A DNA stretch of 45,309 bases from a virus, in IMG/VR virus record IMGVR_UViG_3300048592_000194, positions 1 through 45,309 of that record; one strand, written 5' to 3'. Made by a program: the position numbers and the translations under genes. Of the stretch, positions 1,458 through 42,706 are shown piece by piece. The first letter of the stretch is position 1; each line of letters begins with the position of its first letter. The notes below the pieces were generated by a model. The model saw nothing but the letters and a program-made list of their open reading frames with translations. It did not search any database and was not told the DNA's origin.

Positions 1458-2095
1458 CAGGCGGCTTCCTTGTCGCCATACAGGCTGTTGAGCTCGGACA
1501 GCTTCACCGCCATTTCCAGAAGGAATGACGCGATCTCGGCCTCGATCTCCTTGATGCGCTTGTCGTCGCGCGGCAGGCGCTTGACGAACAGGCGCATATG
1601 CTCGGGCATCCGGGGATCGTAGGAAACGAAGTCGCACCACTGGCGGCCGGTGCACGCCATCTGGAACTGCATCTGCGCCTCGTATTTGCCGGGCACCGTC
1701 TTGCCGAGCAGCGTTTCCAGGTGGGTCGCCGTGCTCGGGCACTTGATCTCGACCAGCCCATCCGAGCCGAGCAGGCCGTCGGGGCTGCAACCGGCCTGCT
1801 CGATCTTCGGATGGGGGACGAAGGCGACCTGTTCGACAGCGACGCCTTGGTAGAATTCATATGCGGAACGGGCTTCCGGCTCCGTCTCGGTGCCGTGCTG
1901 CATGGCCGCGTTGGTGTAGGATTCGGCAACGGTGCCGGTCAGGCGTTCGGCGATCAGTTGCGCCATGTAGTTTGCGCGGGATGCCGAGTAGCCCGATTTG
2001 GTCTTGGCGATCACGTCGGACACGCGGGAAGCCGTCACCTTGCCGAGCCGCAGTTGCTTCCACTCGTCGCTGCCCTGAATGATTTCCTCGGTCAT
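1457..2095 (-). CDS. YqaJ-type (lambda exonuclease fold) viral recombinase
   Basis: 212 aa. It begins IIQGSDEWKQLRLGKVTASR, the hallmark G-S-x-E/D-W opening of YqaJ/lambda Exo proteins. Further in are H-G-T-E-T-E-P-E-A-R (residues about 66-75), C-S-P-D-G-L-L-G-S-D-G-L-V-E-I-K-C-P (about 103-120) and Q-M-Q-F-Q-M. These include the PD-(D/E)xK catalytic Asp, Glu and Lys (S-P-D-G, E-I-K). The family digests 5' strands to give 3' tails for a partner annealing protein, here the ERF protein two genes upstream. It overlaps the DnaQ-like gene by four bases. Confidence 0.9.
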   Translation of the reverse strand: MTEEIIQGSDEWKQLRLGKVTASRVSDVIAKTKSGYSASRANYMAQLIAERLTGTVAESYTNAAMQHGTETEPEARSAYEFYQGVAVEQVAFVPHPKIEQAGCSPDGLLGSDGLVEIKCPSTATHLETLLGKTVPGKYEAQMQFQMACTGRQWCDFVSYDPRMPEHMRLFVKRLPRDDKRIKEIEAEIASFLLEMAVKLSELNSLYGDKEAA

Positions 2096-2697
2096 GCTGC
2101 CACCTCAAGCGACTTGAGGTGCAGATAGACCCGGCGGCACGCCGTTAAATCGACCATAGCATCATGCGCGCCGTCCAGTTCTTCATTGAAGAAATGGCGA
2201 ATGCATTCCTCCAGCTTGGGAGGCTTGGGCTTGTCGAAGCCGGCCGCGCGCATCTTTTCGGTCGGGGGCAGTTTGATGATTGGAGACGCGGCCTCCATGG
2301 TGCAGAACAGGGGCTTGCGCAGTGGCATCGTGCGCCCGTAATAGCGCGCAATCGCCACCTCAATCACACCCTTGTCGAATTTGATATTGTGAGCACAAAC
2401 CAGATCGGCCCGCTGGTACAGGTGTGTGAAGGCGGACAAGGCGAATTCGGCGGAAACGCCGAATTGGATTGCCTTCTCATTGGTGATGCCGTGAACCGAA
2501 GCCGCGCGCTCTGGTATGGTTACGATATTTCCATTGCCATCGCGGGGGGCTACAATGAAGCAGAAGCCAGCCACAGGCGAACCGTCATCATCGCACAGTT
2601 CGGCGGCCAATTGAACGATGTAGGGCTGTGCCTCATGATCTGGCGGAAGCCGATCATCGAAAAATCCGGTTGTCTCGGTATCGAAAAACAAGATCAT
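2092..2697 (-). CDS. DnaQ-like 3'-5' exonuclease (DEDD family)
   Basis: 201 aa. Motif I is FFDTETTGFFDD (residues 4-15), with the D-x-E metal-binding pair. Motif II is probably the A-H-N-I-K-F-D segment near residue 95. Motif III is the C-terminal G-A-H-D-A-M-V-D-L (His and Asp). This is the fold of DNA polymerase III epsilon proofreading subunits and many phage repair exonucleases. No polymerase accompanies it, so a role with the ERF/YqaJ recombination pair or in processing DNA ends is more likely than proofreading. Its start makes an ATGA overlap with the ERF stop. Confidence 0.85.
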   Translation of the reverse strand: MILFFDTETTGFFDDRLPPDHEAQPYIVQLAAELCDDDGSPVAGFCFIVAPRDGNGNIVTIPERAASVHGITNEKAIQFGVSAEFALSAFTHLYQRADLVCAHNIKFDKGVIEVAIARYYGRTMPLRKPLFCTMEAASPIIKLPPTEKMRAAGFDKPKPPKLEECIRHFFNEELDGAHDAMVDLTACRRVYLHLKSLEVAA

Positions 2698-3413
2698 TTC
2701 GCGCTCCGCTTTTTGTTGAGGGCCGCAACAGCGCGGTCGAAGTCCTTGCTCGGCAGATCGGAAATGCTGGCGATCTTGAAGTATTTGCAGAGGGCGTCCT
2801 TGTCGGCGGAAACCTCCTCGCAAAGCGCGATCAGGTATTCGGCTCGGTCAAGACTGATCTTCTCGCCGCCGGCAGCGCTCTTGCCGTCGTCGTCGCGGGC
2901 AGCCGCAAGGCCGAGCATCTGCACCAGCGAGTAGCGCTGCAAATAGGTCAGCGTCGAGCCGATGGCTTGGATGGCGTTCTTTGATCCGGTCGCGTCCGGC
3001 GGGCCGGCGAGGGTGGTTTCTTCGCTGTGGCCCGACTTGTGGGACAGGATGCAAGTGACGCTGATGCGGTCGGTCTGGACGGTACGGAAGCGATAGGAGA
3101 GGCCGTGCTTTCCGAGGATGGGATCGACCACGGCGGCAATCGCGGAAAAGTCCGCATATTTCTTGTCGTTGTGGCCGGTCGCATTGCGCGTGATCGGCGG
3201 GATTTCCGCCTTGGCTGCGGCGATTGAGGCGTCAAAATCCTTGCGCGCCTGGTTCTGCTCCCATCGCTCCTGCAAGGTCATGAACTTCTCGATCACGTCC
3301 ATGCCGGCACCGCTTGCCAGCGCGCGCTCGATCAGCGCCATCGGCGTGACGGCGGCGGGCAACTGCGTGGCTGCCGAGGTCTCGGTCTCGGGGATTATGG
3401 AAACCTTGTTCAT
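2694..3413 (-). CDS. erf: ERF-family single-strand annealing protein
   Basis: 239 aa. The core contains K-K-Y-A-D-F-S-A-I-A-A-V-V-D-P-I-L-G-K-H-G-L-S, which fits the ERF pattern with a Y-A-x-L/F signature, and then G-S-T-L-T-Y-L-Q-R-Y-S-L-V, the classic ERF motif. The N-terminus is a short low-complexity leader and the C-terminus a small basic tail. ERF proteins such as P22 Erf anneal complementary single strands during phage recombination and genome circularisation. The ATG at 3413 was chosen because it overlaps the upstream stop; longer forms are Arg/Pro-rich shadow. Its partner nuclease is the YqaJ protein downstream. Confidence 0.9.
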   Translation of the reverse strand: MNKVSIIPETETSAATQLPAAVTPMALIERALASGAGMDVIEKFMTLQERWEQNQARKDFDASIAAAKAEIPPITRNATGHNDKKYADFSAIAAVVDPILGKHGLSYRFRTVQTDRISVTCILSHKSGHSEETTLAGPPDATGSKNAIQAIGSTLTYLQRYSLVQMLGLAAARDDDGKSAAGGEKISLDRAEYLIALCEEVSADKDALCKYFKIASISDLPSKDFDRAVAALNKKRSAK

Positions 3414-3592
3414 CTGGTACGCTCCATGCACTGTTTGATGATGGCGAGGTGTTCGGCGACGCTCTGCTCGGCGGCGTCGAGGCGCTTGGAGAAGTCGTGC
3501 ATCCGCTCGTTGGCTTCCAGCGGGGATGCGCCCGAGTGGCGCTCTCTTGTGTAGAAGGAAGCGAGGAGTTGATCGCGTTCGGCGGGGGTCAT
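3410..3592 (-). CDS. Small hypothetical coiled protein
   Basis: 60 aa (MTPAERDQLLASFYTRERH...). It is helical and charged, without transmembrane or Cys motifs. It is placed in the operon by a four-base overlap with the erf start and another with the upstream gene. No family is recognised. Confidence 0.6.
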   Translation of the reverse strand: MTPAERDQLLASFYTRERHSGASPLEANERMHDFSKRLDAAEQSVAEHLAIIKQCMERTR

Positions 3593-3783
3593 GCGGCGCT
3601 CTCCGCGCGTTCTTCAAGCAAGCGCAGCAAGTCCATGACGGCTTCTTGCTCGGTCGAGCCGAAACCCTGCATGTTCTCGTCGTTATCGAGTTGGGCGCAC
3701 CAGTCGAACCGGCGGTCAGGGATCGGTGGGAAAATGTTGCTTGTCGTGTATTTGGTCCCATTGGGGAAAGTGTGGATTGCCAT
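3589..3783 (-). CDS. Small hypothetical protein
   Basis: 64 aa (MAIHTFPNGTKYTTSN...). It has a short beta-rich start and an acidic helical C-terminus ending L-L-R-L-L-E-E-R-A-E-S-A-A. The stop overlaps the next start (ATGA). No family is recognised; position suggests an early gene product. Confidence 0.6.
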   Translation of the reverse strand: MAIHTFPNGTKYTTSNIFPPIPDRRFDWCAQLDNDENMQGFGSTEQEAVMDLLRLLEERAESAA

Positions 3784-3788
3784 CGCCT

Positions 3789-4037
3789 CTACTCCGCCGC
3801 CTGCAACATCAGTGCCTCGGCTTCGCGCACGATCTCGGCCGTCACATCTTCCATGTGGTTGCCGTCAACGAACTTGACGAAGTGAACAGACTTGCGGTCG
3901 GAGGCGAGAAGGTCCGCGACTTCCGAAACGATCTGCCGGCGGGTGAACTCGGGATTGCAGGTCGCCTCATAACCGGAAGGTCCGGTCTTGCCGGGGTATG
4001 ACTTGCCGTAATCAACCATCAAAATGAAAAACTGCAT
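3789..4037 (-). CDS. First gene of the PL operon, hypothetical
   Basis: 82 aa (MQFFILMVDYGKSYPGK...). Start ATG 4037 follows a good ribosome site (ggagcagg on the minus strand, 4039-4048) and lies about 20 nt after the predicted start point of PL. It ends in an acidic helix. No family is recognised. As the first product of the leftward early operon it could be an antiterminator or regulator, but nothing in the sequence shows this. Confidence 0.7.
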   Translation of the reverse strand: MQFFILMVDYGKSYPGKTGPSGYEATCNPEFTRRQIVSEVADLLASDRKSVHFVKFVDGNHMEDVTAEIVREAEALMLQAAE

Positions 4038-4064
4038 TGCCCTGCTCCCGATTTGATAGGAGCA

Positions 4065-4103
4065 GTTATAGCACGACAATAATTATAGTCAAGCTAGAAT
4101 TAT
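4065..4103 (-). promoter_or_regulatory. PL promoter with two operator-like repeats
   Basis: On the minus strand: -35 TTGACT (4087-4092), 16-bp spacer, -10 TATAAC (4065-4070). A (C/T)ATAATT element lies in the spacer and another just upstream of the -35 box; the two starts are 17 bp apart. The same arrangement, nearly base for base, is found at PR. It drives the leftward recombination/accessory operon and is the probable target of the divergently encoded repressor. Confidence 0.8.
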
Positions 4104-7091: not shown

Positions 7092-7249
7092 AGGACAGAA
7101 TTTTTCATTGGGTCCGCCATGAGGATCTGCACGACTGGCTTTTGTGCGGCTGGATATTAGCGCCGTGCAACGACGCGATGCACCATCACGATTATTCGTT
7201 CCTTCTGGAGTGGCTGTGCGACTGCAAGATGCCGAGGCCGGGACGATGA
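7088..7249 (+). CDS. Small hypothetical protein between coiled-coil gene and methyltransferase
   Basis: 53 aa from GTG 7088 (MKDRIFHWVRHEDLHDWLLC...). It ends with a four-base ATGA overlap onto the methyltransferase start and starts with a GTGA overlap. It is rich in Trp, His and Cys, with H-H-H-D near the middle, and could bind a metal. Both junctions are tight, so it is probably a real gene although unrecognised. Confidence 0.55.
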   Translation: MKDRIFHWVRHEDLHDWLLCGWILAPCNDAMHHHDYSFLLEWLCDCKMPRPGR

Positions 7250-7935
7250 GAAAAGAAACACTCGCCGAAGGCGTTGATCTGTACCTTGGCGACTGCCGGG
7301 AAATCCTGCCTACCTTGGGCAAGGTGGATGCTGTGGTGACTGATCCGCCGTATGGGATTGGTGAGAATAGCCGCAAGGTCGCGTCACGCGGCAAGTTGGC
7401 GGCCCCCAAAGATTACGGCAATTTCGATTGGGACCGCTCCCCGCCTGACGCTGCAGTGATCGAGATGGTTCGCGCCCGCAGTCGTTGGCAAATCATGTTT
7501 GGTGGCAACTTCTTTACCTTGCCGCCGTCGTCTTGCTGGCTTGTTTGGGACAAGAAGAACGGCACAAACGATTTTGCTGATTGCGAGCTTGCTTGGACGA
7601 ATCTGCCCAAGGCCGTCCGACGAATTGAATGGCTTTGGAATGGAATGATCCGCAAAGGTGATGATTTTCGGGAGCATCCCACACAGAAGCCAGAAGGCGT
7701 TATGAAGTGGTGTATCGAACAGTTGCCAGACGACTGCGCCACCATCCTCGACCCATTCATGGGCTCCGGCACCACAGGCGTTGCCGCCGTCAAGCTCGGC
7801 CGCAAGTTCATCGGCATAGAGATCGAGCCGAAGTATTTCGACATCGCCTGCAAGCGCATTCAGGCCGCGCTGGACGCCCCGGATATGTTCGTTGAGGCAC
7901 CCAAGCCCGCAAAGCAAGAGGCGCTTGAACTGTGA
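7246..7935 (+). CDS. DNA N6-adenine (or N4-cytosine) methyltransferase, beta-type order
   Basis: 229 aa from ATG 7246. Catalytic motif IV is V-T-D-P-P-Y-G-I (residues about 29-36). The S-adenosylmethionine site is C-terminal, D-P-F-M-G-S-G-T-T-G-V-A-A (about 173-185), preceded by H-P-T-Q-K-P-E. That order is typical of beta-class enzymes such as CcrM and phage Dam-like proteins. It likely methylates phage DNA against restriction or for gene control; target specificity cannot be read here. The longer reading from 7144 covers the 53-aa gene and is not used. Confidence 0.9.
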   Translation: MRKETLAEGVDLYLGDCREILPTLGKVDAVVTDPPYGIGENSRKVASRGKLAAPKDYGNFDWDRSPPDAAVIEMVRARSRWQIMFGGNFFTLPPSSCWLVWDKKNGTNDFADCELAWTNLPKAVRRIEWLWNGMIRKGDDFREHPTQKPEGVMKWCIEQLPDDCATILDPFMGSGTTGVAAVKLGRKFIGIEIEPKYFDIACKRIQAALDAPDMFVEAPKPAKQEALEL

Positions 7936-38519: not shown

Positions 38520-39089
38520 TCAGGCTGCATTCTTCTGGCGCTTTAGACCAAAATCGCGAAGCTTGATCTTCGCCTTGCGCCCATCGTTGTGGTGGAAAAC
38601 GATCCCCTCCATGTCCTTCACGGCGAGCCAGTCACGAAGGCCATCGAATGTGCGGGGCACGTTTCCCACATCGCCAGCCAAGCCGTAGCCGTGACCGACC
38701 AGCAAGTGTCTGGTCGCGCGTTCTGGATTGCCTTGGATCTTCGGCCCTAGCAATTCATAGGTGCCGTCCGGGAGAACGGCATCGGCCTCCCAAGCCTCGC
38801 GATGATAGCGGTCCTCGGGGCCCCCGCCGACCGGCATCCAGCCTACCGTCTTGCCGGTCTCCTCGTCATAATCGACAGCATCAAATTCCATGGGAAAGGC
38901 ATCGCCCTTGCGTAGTTCGCGTCGCTTATAGAGCTTGCCCTCGCGAACCAGACAGCATGTTCCATCAACCTTTCGGGTTGCCTTGCCTTCGCCGGCCAAA
39001 ACCCATTCACAGCCGACGTGGACTTGATCGACCACGCGGCTGCGATCACCATTCCAGTCGCGTTCAAAGACGGTCGGTATCTTCTTCAT
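38520..39089 (-). CDS. RNA ligase-like nucleotidyltransferase (DUF5565-like)
   Basis: 189 aa from ATG 39089 (MKKIPTVFERDWNGDRSRVV...). The ligase motif I is A-T-R-K-V-D-G-T-C-C (Lys at about 40, the expected AMP-accepting residue). Motif III-like Y-K-R-R-E-L and G-T-Y-E-L-L-G-P-K follow, with a C-terminal E-G-I-V-F and K-I-K-L motifs IV/V. It resembles the DUF5565/RLIG1-type RNA ligases. It could repair tRNA or other RNA cut by host defences. All five core motifs seem present. Confidence 0.72.
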   Translation of the reverse strand: MKKIPTVFERDWNGDRSRVVDQVHVGCEWVLAGEGKATRKVDGTCCLVREGKLYKRRELRKGDAFPMEFDAVDYDEETGKTVGWMPVGGGPEDRYHREAWEADAVLPDGTYELLGPKIQGNPERATRHLLVGHGYGLAGDVGNVPRTFDGLRDWLAVKDMEGIVFHHNDGRKAKIKLRDFGLKRQKNAA

Positions 39090-39215
39090 TTGGGCTCTCC
39101 AATAGCCGCCCCATGCGGCAGTTCTAAATTCCGATGACTGACCAACTCCAACCAAATCAACGCCTAAGCAGAGCTACCCCTGGGTGAAGGTGACGGCTCG
39201 GGTCATTGGGCGGCT
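39090..39215. other. Intergenic stretch in the accessory operon
   Basis: 126 bp with no convincing ORF. It contains a short GCCGC...GCGGC hairpin (39106-39119) without a T-run on either side. No promoter was recognised. Confidence 0.4.
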
Positions 39216-39710: not shown

Positions 39711-39965
39711 CTACCCTTCAGCCGCCATCAGGCACTCGGGCCTGTGCTTGAACCCGATGGGGGTTTGAGAGAGCGCTTGACAGTATTCGCACTGCCAAAA
39801 AGGCGAGCGCGGCCCCAAGAGGCGTACGGAACGGCTTTCCAGTGTCCTGCGTAGTTTTTCGAGATGGTCGGCAACCTCGTGGATTGCCTGGCGCGAAGTC
39901 AGCACCATAACGCCATCTTCATCGGCCTGCTGATAAGACAGTAGGGCTTTTAGAGCTTCGCTCAT
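39711..39965 (-). CDS. Small protein with C-terminal zinc knuckle
   Basis: 84 aa (MSEALKALLSYQQADEDGVM...). A helical N-terminal half and a C-terminal C-E-Y-C...H-R-P-E-C pattern. ATGA overlap with the upstream gene. Function unknown. Confidence 0.6.
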   Translation of the reverse strand: MSEALKALLSYQQADEDGVMVLTSRQAIHEVADHLEKLRRTLESRSVRLLGPRSPFWQCEYCQALSQTPIGFKHRPECLMAAEG

Positions 39966-40225
39966 GGTTGTTTTTCCTGCAAAGAGACTTCCGACGCCGT
40001 TTCGGGATTTGGTTTCAATTCGCGAATGCGCTTGTCCAAAATCCACACCATGTCCTCACCCATGCCGACGCTCGGCTGCGGCAGTAGGCGCAGCACACGA
40101 ACGAGGTTGTCGTAAGCGTCGGCCTTCGGTTCGAGGCGCGCGATAACTGCCCGAAGGCTCAAAATCTCTTGCTTGCAGCGGTTCATCATCTGGATGGCTT
40201 CGGCGTTGTTCATTTCTGGCGGCAT
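39962..40225 (-). CDS. Small coiled-coil protein downstream of the TIR cassette
   Basis: 87 aa (MPPEMNNAEAIQMMNRCKQE...), predicted helical (R-A-V-I-A-R-L-E-P-K-A-D). Its ribosome site (AGGAG) is partly provided by the last bases of the 8-bp duplication left by the element at 40243-41058, so the insertion did not destroy its translation signal. Confidence 0.6.
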   Translation of the reverse strand: MPPEMNNAEAIQMMNRCKQEILSLRAVIARLEPKADAYDNLVRVLRLLPQPSVGMGEDMVWILDKRIRELKPNPETASEVSLQEKQP

Positions 40226-40234
40226 CGCCGTCTC

Positions 40235-40242
40235 CTAGTTGT
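40235..40242 (+). repeat. 8-bp target-site duplication, left copy
   Basis: ctagttgt, immediately outside the left terminal inverted repeat; identical to 41059-41066. Confidence 0.85.
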
Positions 40243-41058
40243 CATGCTTATCCGGTTGCCACACACAGGCGAAAAATGACCCCACATCTTGTGTCCCCTT
40301 CATGGTCTACCTGTAGTGTTGAACGGGCGACCGTAGACCGCTTCGCAAACGCGGCGACACAGGCCGATGTCAAAGCGGTCGTCGGTTCGCACCCCGCTTT
40401 CCATGTCGATCCAGTAAGGCCCGCGCGCGGCTATCTGGTCGATCACGGCGCGCACGTTGTCGGGGCCGATGCCGCCTGCATAGCCGACGTGGCGGCCGGG
40501 ATGGGCGGGCCATTTGGCGGGCGCTACGCCCCGCCCGCCAGAGGCATCAAAGAGCCAGTCAATCGACGTGTCTTTCGGGAACACCGCCGCGCGTGTCTGT
40601 GCGATGCAGCGCGGTCCCCAGCCTTTTCGGAAGGTATTGATGCGGATCGAGTCCGGTGCGCGGTGATTGACCTGAATTCGCTTGAAAATGCCAAGGTCAA
40701 CCGGGATTTGCTTCACGATGTCATCCAGCCGACCTTCCATGATCGCCCGGCTGTAGTCGCCGCAAAGGTGCGCTGCGAGGCGAAGCCCGCTCCAAGCAAA
40801 CCGGGATTGTGCTTCGCCGCCGGGGTAGCGCGGGTCAGTACCTTGCCGCGCTGGGCTAAAGAGAATGCCCCACTCAATCGGGTAGCCCTTCGACAGCGCG
40901 ATCATTTCGCGCACGTCGGTATGGTCGTCCGCGCCCGTGAACGTGATGAAGGTGGGCACCACGGGCAACACCTCTACAGGTGGTGCCCCGCGTTCCGCCG
41001 AAGTCTCTTTTCTAGTCGTCAACATCTAGTACCCGTGTGTGGCAACCGGATAAGCATG
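40243..41058. mobile_element. TIR/TSD-bounded 816-bp cassette without transposase
   Basis: Perfect 24-bp inverted repeats at 40243-40266 and 41035-41058 (outer end catgcttatccgg). They are flanked by an 8-bp direct repeat (ctagttgt) at 40235-40242 and 41059-41066. Only one gene lies inside, a TrpF-like protein occupying 726 of 816 bp; no transposase or integrase is seen. It lies exactly between the TAG of the upstream gene and the ribosome site of the next, so neither neighbour is damaged. Probably moved by enzymes supplied in trans. Inverted-repeat structure could also allow inversion of the segment. Confidence 0.85.
40300..41025 (-). CDS. TrpF-like (phosphoribosylanthranilate isomerase-type) TIM-barrel protein
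   Basis: 241 aa. Barrel-type strands V-V-P-T-F-I-T-F-T-G-A-D-D, I-E-W-G-I-L-F-S, R-I-Q-V-N-H, C-I-A-Q-T-R and H-V-G-Y-A-G-G-I-G-P-D-N-V lead to Y-W-I-D-M-E-S-G-V-R-T-D-D-R-F-D-I. The last part matches the TrpF phosphate-binding end (G-I-x-P-x-N, S-G-V-R). Similar proteins occur in diverse phage genomes with unknown function; no other tryptophan genes are present here. It is the only gene in the TIR cassette. The ATG at 41025 has no strong ribosome site, and a later start is possible. Confidence 0.7.
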   Translation of the reverse strand: MLTTRKETSAERGAPPVEVLPVVPTFITFTGADDHTDVREMIALSKGYPIEWGILFSPARQGTDPRYPGGEAQSRFAWSGLRLAAHLCGDYSRAIMEGRLDDIVKQIPVDLGIFKRIQVNHRAPDSIRINTFRKGWGPRCIAQTRAAVFPKDTSIDWLFDASGGRGVAPAKWPAHPGRHVGYAGGIGPDNVRAVIDQIAARGPYWIDMESGVRTDDRFDIGLCRRVCEAVYGRPFNTTGRP

Positions 41059-41066
41059 CTAGTTGT
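41059..41066 (+). repeat. 8-bp target-site duplication, right copy
   Basis: ctagttgt, immediately outside the right inverted repeat. Its first three bases are the (minus-strand) TAG stop of the 41059-41391 gene. Confidence 0.85.
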
Positions 41067-41391
41067 TAAGTTTCAGCCCAAAAAGCTCGCGCATTTCCGG
41101 CGGCAATTGCTTCGCAGCCTCCTGTCCTGACGGGCTACGCGCCCATTCGTCGCTTTCCTCTTTTGTGGCGTCGAACTCGCCGTTCGCGACGCGGGCAGCA
41201 AATTTAGTGAAGCCAGCCGCGGTCAGTTCCGAATAGAGTTGGGTGATCGGGCAGACATGGGTGTCGGCGTAGTCGTCAAACTCGCCCGTCTCCGCGCGTT
41301 TCGCGAAAGCCTCATACTTATCCGCATTGCCCGGCGAGGCTATCGCGGCAATCTTTCGAAGCTCGGCAGCCAACTTATCGCGCGTCCTCAT
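41059..41391 (-). CDS. Hypothetical protein upstream of the TIR cassette
   Basis: 110 aa from ATG 41391 (MRTRDKLAAELRKIAAIASP...). Helical, with A-K-R-A-E-T-G-E-F-D-D-Y-A-D and a similar A-R-V-A-N-G-E-F-D-A-T later, i.e. a weak internal repeat. Ends G-L-K-L-N-N at the TAG that forms part of the target duplication. Function unknown. Confidence 0.65.
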   Translation of the reverse strand: MRTRDKLAAELRKIAAIASPGNADKYEAFAKRAETGEFDDYADTHVCPITQLYSELTAAGFTKFAARVANGEFDATKEESDEWARSPSGQEAAKQLPPEMRELFGLKLNN

Positions 41392-42428
41392 GGCTTGTCG
41401 CTTTCCTGTGAGACGAGCGGCATGTCGTCGTGGGTGACGCCATCGAGGAGGCGTCCAGCGGCCTTCTTGCCGAAATGTTCGATGAACGCCGCGCCGGTTT
41501 CGGGATACAATTCCTCTGCCTTTGCGACGCGCGGGTGCTCTCGCAGAGTGCACCATCCGCTGCGAGGATTGCCGGCGGCTTGCTCTGGCGTTGACGGTGC
41601 CCATGCGCCCCACTGCTTGAAGAAAAATGGCACGCCGATCAGCGCGCATTGATCTCGCAGTGCTCGCGCCCATGATGGGTGCATTGGTCTCGCGTCCGGG
41701 CCTGACTCGCCGCCGCAAATCACCCAGTCGGGAAACATTTTGATCGGATGGTCGAGCGTCAGCGCCATGGATTGCAGGTTGAGCGGACCGAGTGCCGGCT
41801 CGTAGCTGATGAACCGCACCGCGGCCGGCGTGCTCGCCAGATGCGGCCACCGCTCATCGTATTCCTTCTGACGTTCGGTGGAGACGCCGAGCCAGACGTT
41901 GGGGAGGGGCCACGGGGTGACGGCTTCCAAGGCTCGCGACGCCATGTCTTTGGCGTCGTCACCGTGCAGATCGAGCAGCAGGCAATAGGCTTGATGCTGT
42001 ATTTCGTAGCGAGGGCTTCCAGGCTCCTCTAAGCGGACAAAATAATTCCGCATCCGCTCCGCCCGCTTCGTCAGCACCTGGAACGTATGCTGCGGGCAGA
42101 GCGCCATGACAGCGAATACTTGATCGATCAGACTATCATCAAAAACCTCGTAGAACAGATCGCTCATTGAATTGACGAAATAGGTCGTCGGCGTCTTTCG
42201 ACGCAATGGCGCAAGCAACGCATGAGGCGATGCGCGCACAGTGCCGCGCCAAACCGGCCCGGCATTGCTCGGCTTCGTCAGGCCCTTGTAAAGCGGCTGG
42301 CCCATCGCGTCGAGGCGCGCGGCCATCTTCATCGCATAGCAGTTGGTGCAGCCGGGAGATAGGACGGCGCAGCCGGCGAACGGATTCCAAGTGTGGCCCG
42401 TCCACTCGATGTTCGATTTCCCGGCCAT
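41388..42428 (-). CDS. Phage Gp37/Gp68 family protein (DUF5131)
   Basis: 346 aa from ATG 42428. Starts MAGKSNIEWTGHTWNPFAGC, followed by S-P-G-C-T-N-C-Y-A-M, the diagnostic W-N-P-x-x-G-C...S-P-G-C-x-x-C-Y-A Cys motif, which resembles a radical-SAM/Fe-S binding site. Further blocks are T-Y-F-V-N-S-M-S-D-L-F-Y, T-F-Q-V-L-T-K-R-A-E-R-M, W-L-G-V-S-T-E-R-Q, R-F-I-S-Y-E-P-A-L-G and W-V-I-C-G-G-E-S-G-P-D-A-R-P. The substrate of this phage family is not known. Co-transcribed in the PL accessory operon. Confidence 0.85.
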   Translation of the reverse strand: MAGKSNIEWTGHTWNPFAGCAVLSPGCTNCYAMKMAARLDAMGQPLYKGLTKPSNAGPVWRGTVRASPHALLAPLRRKTPTTYFVNSMSDLFYEVFDDSLIDQVFAVMALCPQHTFQVLTKRAERMRNYFVRLEEPGSPRYEIQHQAYCLLLDLHGDDAKDMASRALEAVTPWPLPNVWLGVSTERQKEYDERWPHLASTPAAVRFISYEPALGPLNLQSMALTLDHPIKMFPDWVICGGESGPDARPMHPSWARALRDQCALIGVPFFFKQWGAWAPSTPEQAAGNPRSGWCTLREHPRVAKAEELYPETGAAFIEHFGKKAAGRLLDGVTHDDMPLVSQESDKP

Positions 42429-42706
42429 CAACCTTTGCCCTCTTCTGAAACTAACGCGGCGTCGGGCGGCGAGAAGCCCAAGGCGACATCAATGGCCGCA
42501 GCCCAAGCTCCGCGCACACCGCCCTTGGTTTCCATTAGTGCCTTGTTGAAAGCCGCCACCATGTCGTCGGTCGGGTCGCGCATTTTCATAACTGCGGCGA
42601 AGGACAGCCCGTACACTAGCCCTACTGCGCTGTATCCGCTGACCTTGAGGTCGCCATCCAGGCCCTTGCCGATCGCACCCGCGATTCGTTCAATCATCTC
42701 GGTCAT
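42428..42706 (-). CDS. Small hypothetical, paralogue of the 10820 gene
   Basis: 92 aa (MTEMIERIAGAIGKGLDGDL...). Clearly related to the rightward protein at 10820-11086 over the N-terminal half. The start region (42701-42722) repeats the region around 43761-43782 exactly for 22 bp. Stop shares a base with the DUF5131 ATG. Confidence 0.65.
   Translation of the reverse strand: MTEMIERIAGAIGKGLDGDLKVSGYSAVGLVYGLSFAAVMKMRDPTDDMVAAFNKALMETKGGVRGAWAAAIDVALGFSPPDAALVSEEGKG

Follow-up and report, generated by a model that had tools for sequence, protein, structure and literature searches.

Phages from soil and sediment carry a so far undescribed family of very small, probably mobile single-gene cassettes

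Integron gene cassettes are promoterless single-gene units with exchangeable content that depend on attC sites and an integrase. Passenger-carrying members of the IS1595 family were reportedly discussed by Siguier and colleagues in 2009, as cited in PMC3129680. Closer in form are the mobile insertion cassettes (MICs), in which the inverted repeats of an insertion sequence (IS) bracket a passenger gene without a transposase, a target duplication is made and movement occurs in trans. MIC231 of Bacillus cereus is mobilised in this way by IS231A, mic-qnrD is another MIC, and the IS231-MIC231 elements are reported to be modular (PMC3913671, PMC3129680). Among phages, the mycobacteriophage elements MPME1/2 are very small, have terminal inverted repeats and move among close relatives; they are 439 bp long and almost identical, show a 6-bp addition at one end and have no exchanged cargo (PMC3029335). 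MITEs and TIME-COMPs are likewise non-autonomous, share their ends with an IS or transposon and are proposed to move in trans; MITEs such as MITEAba12 have neither a transposase nor a cargo gene, and in TIME-COMPs the cargo that moves is enclosed by two complete MITEs (PMC6382973, PMC13367494). In the literature searched, which left out most subscription papers, we found no description of phage-borne cassettes of the kind reported here and no paper containing their repeat sequence. No earlier phage-borne branch of IS1595 was found in the literature searched either.

The window analysed here is the whole 45,309-nucleotide stretch of the IMG/VR record IMGVR_UViG_3300048592_000194, a tailed-phage record with terminase, portal and major head genes. 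It holds an 816-bp element (Table 1) whose two arms, 768 bp apart, form an inverted repeat that is perfect over 24 nt (27 nt at 96%), with CTAGTTGT adjoining both outer ends. A single long gene-like ORF lies between the arms, and no IS1595 transposase was found in the element or in the rest of the window (best tblastn E 0.41). The repeat, the duplication, the single gene and the lack of a transposase in the element had been listed in the initial annotation, whose coordinates proved exact. We hold with high confidence that the element is a non-autonomous mobile insertion cassette with IS1595-family (ISAcr1-like) ends that is mobilised in trans. The window also encodes an RNA ligase-like protein at 38520-39155 (PF17720, 32 bits, above cut-off) and a DUF5131 protein at 41388-42431 (PF07505), the latter found at the DNA level in several isolated phages as well; gene87 had no match in isolated phages.

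Table 1. Features of the element and its neighbours (window coordinates)
Feature	Position	Strand	Remarks
gene87	39962..40225	-	downstream neighbour, intact
gene87 Shine-Dalgarno	TAG of duplication copy 40235..40242 + adjoining GAG		
Target-site duplication copy	40235..40242	.	CTAGTTGT on +, ACAACTAG on -
Terminal inverted repeat, stop end (end B)	40243..40266	+	
Stop-end module, about 76-77 bp	40243..40318	-	encodes C-terminal tail TTGRP + stop
Cargo ORF, 241 aa, TrpF-like TIM barrel (predicted)	40300..41025	-	first and last codons end-encoded, fused
Subterminal motif TACTAGATGTTG	41020..41031	-	includes cargo start codon 41023-41025
Terminal inverted repeat, start end (end A)	41035..41058	-	
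Target-site duplication copy	41059..41066	.	includes gene110 stop codon
gene110	41059..41391	-	upstream neighbour, intact

Of the systems above, MICs come closest. Their sequence features are all met: IS-type terminal repeats (a 15-bp core shared with IS1595 elements, near the ISAcr1 ends), a passenger gene without a transposase, and a target duplication with an empty site. By analogy the element may work like a MIC, with mobilisation in trans being inferred only. The family nevertheless differs from described MICs in its IS1595-family ends, its mostly phage carriers, its roughly 58 cargo clusters and the overlap of its ends with the start and stop codons of the cargo. Moreover, its cassettes lack a promoter-like upstream end, whereas mic-qnrD is reported to have a promoter of its own (PMC3913671). 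With IS1595 elements such as ISAcr1 the family has in common terminal and subterminal sequence, 8-bp duplications and, in its presumed helper elements, a zinc-ribbon and DDE transposase, but the window element and 70 others lack this enzyme and so do not meet the own-transposase criterion. At 816 bp and with an 8-bp duplication, the element does not fit the MPMEs (about 440 bp, a 6-bp addition and no target duplication), from which the family also differs in its many cargoes. Nor is it a MITE, that is, short and without a coding gene, since it carries a conserved 241-aa ORF; unlike in MITEs and TIME-COMPs, one or two genes lie directly between a single pair of ends. Integron cassettes share the promoterless, exchangeable single-gene content but not the terminal inverted repeats, target duplications and DDE-transposase relatives, and the 8-bp duplications argue against that identity.

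The exact 24-mer was present in 39 IMG/VR stretches, variants added further copies, and the majority of copies were arranged as inverted pairs. Among the 119 nearest convergent pairs at the fetched loci, an identical 8-mer abutted both repeats at offset 0 in 73, at offsets +1 and -1 in one pair each and at none of the other tested offsets; abutting duplications are therefore not a matter of chance, as had been argued for the window's own. All scans of viral contigs yielded 92 distinct elements with exact 8-bp duplications, a lower bound that depends on the patterns searched. An IS1595-family transposase is encoded by 21 of them (1579-2302 bp). The remaining 71 (241-1336 bp, median 568) lack one and fall into 58 cargo clusters; one of these holds several genes, and some of their small ORFs are doubtful as genes. 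The duplications are AT-rich (32% GC, against 57% in the flanks). Two tandem cassettes in L044 (2899-3806) have one and the same 8-bp sequence, CGTTGATC, duplicated at each of their three junctions, as though the later cassette had inserted into the duplication made by the earlier one. Ends reading CATGCTTATCCGGTTNNNNCCCAY mark a second subfamily (e.g. L206, L258, L266), which is widespread in viral contigs and likewise brackets transposase-free cargo.

The isolated phages of INPHARED contained no match to the cassette end or to the IS1595 transposase of the elements, and plasmids none to the cassette end. Within the bacterial order searched, the repeat pattern occurred in one of 398 genomes, the one that had seeded the search, and no transposase was detected in the same genomes at E 1e-100, a weak result as the set had no positive control. 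Copies on bacterial contigs of Bradyrhizobium viridifuturi, Rhodoplanes elegans and a Rhodoplanes metagenome-assembled genome (MAG) suggest that Hyphomicrobiales are among the hosts; the host of the window phage itself is not established. On the Rhodoplanes MAG contig (L047, 3849-4709), a cassette that carries an N4/N6 DNA methylase as cargo and has an 8-bp duplication lies between ORFs that, read off their protein sequences, we take to be dnaA and rpsT, and it is likely a chromosomal landing. A phage DNA methyltransferase encoded in the window at 7210-7935 is 37% identical to this cargo.

The transposase of the long elements, about 340-350 aa, matches the IS1595 DDE domain and zinc ribbon in Pfam and the IS1595 model of NCBIfam, above the cut-offs of both. 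Its relatives were found on 26 viral contigs, mostly within elements sharing the 15-bp core (some with 1-3 changes) and 8-bp duplications, and E10, E46, E49 and other presumed helper elements have both 8-bp duplications and family-like ends. Transposase elements and cargo cassettes occurred together on at least 11 contigs (e.g. 3300014155_000278, 3300043787_000086, 3300036790_000128, 3300025480_000005 and 3300014501_000004), with the caveat that some viral contigs may be misclassified. The nearest named element found was ISAcr1 of Acidiphilium (63.6% identity); an unnamed sphingomonad IS1595 reached 65.5%. Copies of ISAcr1 have ends reading CTTGCCTATCCGGTT, 8-bp duplications and, as CCTACTAGATCTAG, a subterminal motif of the type seen in the window as TACTAGATGTTG. 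These ends and this motif have the architecture of the cassette ends.

Outside the 15-bp core, the autonomous ends (..GACACATRCAG..) and the cassette ends (..GCCACACAC..) do not fully agree. This divergence counts against the preferred reading, as does the lack of a helper transposase in the window record, which is possibly incomplete. It would also be expected if a different transposase with similar end recognition moved the cassettes and the IS1595 elements on the same phages were mere relatives. We consider this improbable, since the core, the length of the duplication and the contigs are all shared with IS1595 elements and the ISAcr1 subterminal motif matches the cassette ends; no other transposase was found inside the elements, although no specific search was made. 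Two side observations concern autonomous elements. In L104, a cassette start end lies at 2746, within an autonomous IS1595 element (1805-4069), perhaps reflecting a nested or fused cassette. The upstream end of some transposase elements, L087 (2341-2390) among them, can be read as a promoter (TTGACA and TAGTAT about 17 bp apart) that is formed in part by the terminal repeat and is lost from cassette ends.

Evidence for movement comes from empty sites. The window's own is found in related phages (L117, L118 and others), where gene110 and gene87 are contiguous around a single ACAACTAG; the L118 junction reads ...AACAACTAGGAGAACCGCAATGCCGCC, compared with ...AACAACTAGGAGACGGCGATGCCGCC for the joined window flanks. 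Because the duplication holds the gene110 stop codon and helps to form the gene87 Shine-Dalgarno, neither gene is damaged. Empty sites were also found for E08 and E19, that of E08 in L187 with flanks 98.8% identical. In addition, a 365-bp cassette (E00/E09, 98.3% identity) and a two-gene cassette (E61/E63, 92%) each occupy two sites with different duplications. The initial annotation had reconstructed the pre-insertion state now seen in these relatives, and had proposed to look for phages with a single target copy and for repeats around other cargo or a transposase, all of which were found. Its view of the element as a non-autonomous mobile cassette is borne out by a family with duplications, empty sites and varied cargo, and the result that would have refuted it, the gene being present in every relative between the same flanks but without repeats, was not obtained.

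Transposition itself was not observed, and IS1595 elements with extra ORFs do occur (E47, E50, E54), so that the cassettes could in principle be relics, that is, IS1595 elements that gained passengers, lost their transposase and are now immobile, inherited by descent or ordinary recombination. This is disfavoured, and to our minds very improbable, given the near-identical cassettes at different sites with their own duplications (E00/E09), the E08 empty site in L187 and the perfect duplications kept by most copies. That the repeats merely flank a resident gene as a bidirectional terminator or regulatory repeat and have nothing to do with mobility, as single genes flanked by inverted repeats in compact operons might suggest and as the initial annotation had allowed for, can be rejected with near certainty on account of the duplications, the empty sites and arms that stand 241-2302 bp apart around unrelated cargo and transposases.

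The ends of the preferred non-autonomous cassette are modular. A homologue of the window cargo in L112 (90% protein identity) follows a terminase gene with no repeats nearby, and its DNA homology to the window is confined to the ORF (40318-41026). Outside the ORF, the window matches the ends of cassettes carrying other cargo: its stop-end module recurs at 85-88% in three cassettes, whose cargoes are a DNA methylase and two unclassified proteins of 194 and 225 aa, and the outer part is common to a fourth cassette. At the C-terminus, the native ...YGRPLNAR reads ...YGRPFNTTGRP in the cassette form, and the unrelated E04 cargo also ends in ...TTGRP. At the start, gene110 and gene87, which together form a two-gene cassette cargo at two different sites (L117 4955-5631 and L118 4955-5630), have a native ATG-AGGACGCGC changed to ATGTTG-AGGACGCGC. 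From these tails and this change it follows that the cargo takes first and last codons from the ends. In 21 of 37 start-end copies (48 motif matches minus 11 mirrored motifs of the other end), an ORF covering over 60% of the element begins at the motif's ATG, compared with 8/96 for the two other frames of all 48 matches. Many ORFs stop at fixed positions in the other end, namely after ..QDVGLCV inside the repeat, after ..HNI or ..HKM, or at a TGA 41 nt from the tip. Capture of cargo by recombination at gene borders is inferred; two start junctions overlap by three bases (TGA), as microhomology-based capture might produce, but this is speculation.

Both neighbouring genes ran the same way as the cassette in 32 cases and the opposite way in 3 (binomial p about 4e-7), whereas transposase elements were split 8 to 7 (Fisher p 0.004 vs cassettes). 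The ratio is approximate: 19 cassettes gave a mixed or no clear orientation, the strand of seven cargoes was assigned manually, and gene calls were home-made, with flank orientation taken from a hexamer score in place of an ORF-length method that was too noisy. By a consensus pattern, a promoter-like upstream end was present in 6/18 transposase elements and 0/54 cassettes. Together, the orientation bias and the absence of promoter-like upstream ends support reading of the cassettes from the phage operon, an inference as expression was not measured.

Pfam names among 20 tested cargoes included C-5 methylases, Dam, N4/N6 methylase, Mom, NADAR, ASCH, radical SAM and a PAPS-reductase-like protein; roughly half gave no informative match, and several of the matches fell short of curated cut-offs. 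Dcm is also among the cargo types of the family. For several cargoes, relatives lie outside elements on other phage contigs, among them NADAR (81%) and a Dcm-like protein (76%). The window cargo had been called TrpF-like. Its structural model (pLDDT 83.8) has TrpF entries as top PDB matches (E 1.7e-6 and 3.0e-6, TM about 0.54-0.65), so that the fold, a predicted TrpF-like TIM barrel, stands. Sequence support is weak, at 22.4 bits against PF00697 (cut-off 22.7), far below the cut-offs of NCBIfam TrpF and with no PHROGs match. All six homologues keep the LFDxSGG-type (Asp) and AGGxGP motifs and read ITFTG at what should be the TrpF Cys position, the alignment to TrpF being inferred there. As we presume a catalytic Cys at this position in TrpF, its replacement by ITFTG makes isomerase activity doubtful, and the enzymatic side of the name is not supported.

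The preferred reading rests on the ends, duplications, empty sites, cargo exchanged between shared ends, transposase-bearing relatives and orientation bias, all taken from sequence comparison. An IS1595 transposase would come in trans, from an autonomous copy on another phage, a prophage or the host, recognise the terminal repeat, probably together with the subterminal CTAGATGT motif, and move the cassette, duplicating 8 bp of AT-rich target. In the window phage, the cassette would have landed at the gene110 stop codon, leaving both neighbours intact, and, having no promoter-like upstream end, would probably be read from the phage operon, with its ends supplying a translation start (ATGTTG within the subterminal motif) and a C-terminal tail with a stop. 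Between such ends, different cassettes hold different phage genes, and the family would thereby act as a means of shuffling accessory genes among phages. The transposase family (IS1595, ISAcr1-like), the end-borne start and stop signals and the exchange of cargo between shared ends go beyond the initial annotation. As far as the searched literature shows, what is new is the IS1595-type cassette family itself, with phages as main carriers, its breadth of cargo and its ends overlapping start and stop codons.

We can only tentatively go further, and lean somewhat against doing so: IS1595-type ends in phages may be a dedicated gene-capture and exchange system, in which the subterminal motif, probably read by the transposase, would also act as a start-codon module, with the opposite end providing the stop-codon module. 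Promoterless ORFs, many for DNA modification, would be trapped between them, inserted in the reading direction of operons and traded among phages and hosts, as in integrons but driven by a DDE enzyme.

The routes by which phages gain single accessory genes ('morons') are mostly unknown, and the cassette family is a visible physical vehicle: its ends are defined, there is a candidate for the transposase, empty sites are known, and the cargoes number in the dozens. Several cargoes (DNA methylases, Mom, NADAR) have plausible functions in DNA modification or counter-defence, and the repeat can serve as a search key, any gene between such ends being a candidate accessory phage gene. The cassettes look like a means for phages to trade genes, and with them the acquisition of accessory genes by phages becomes testable in the laboratory.
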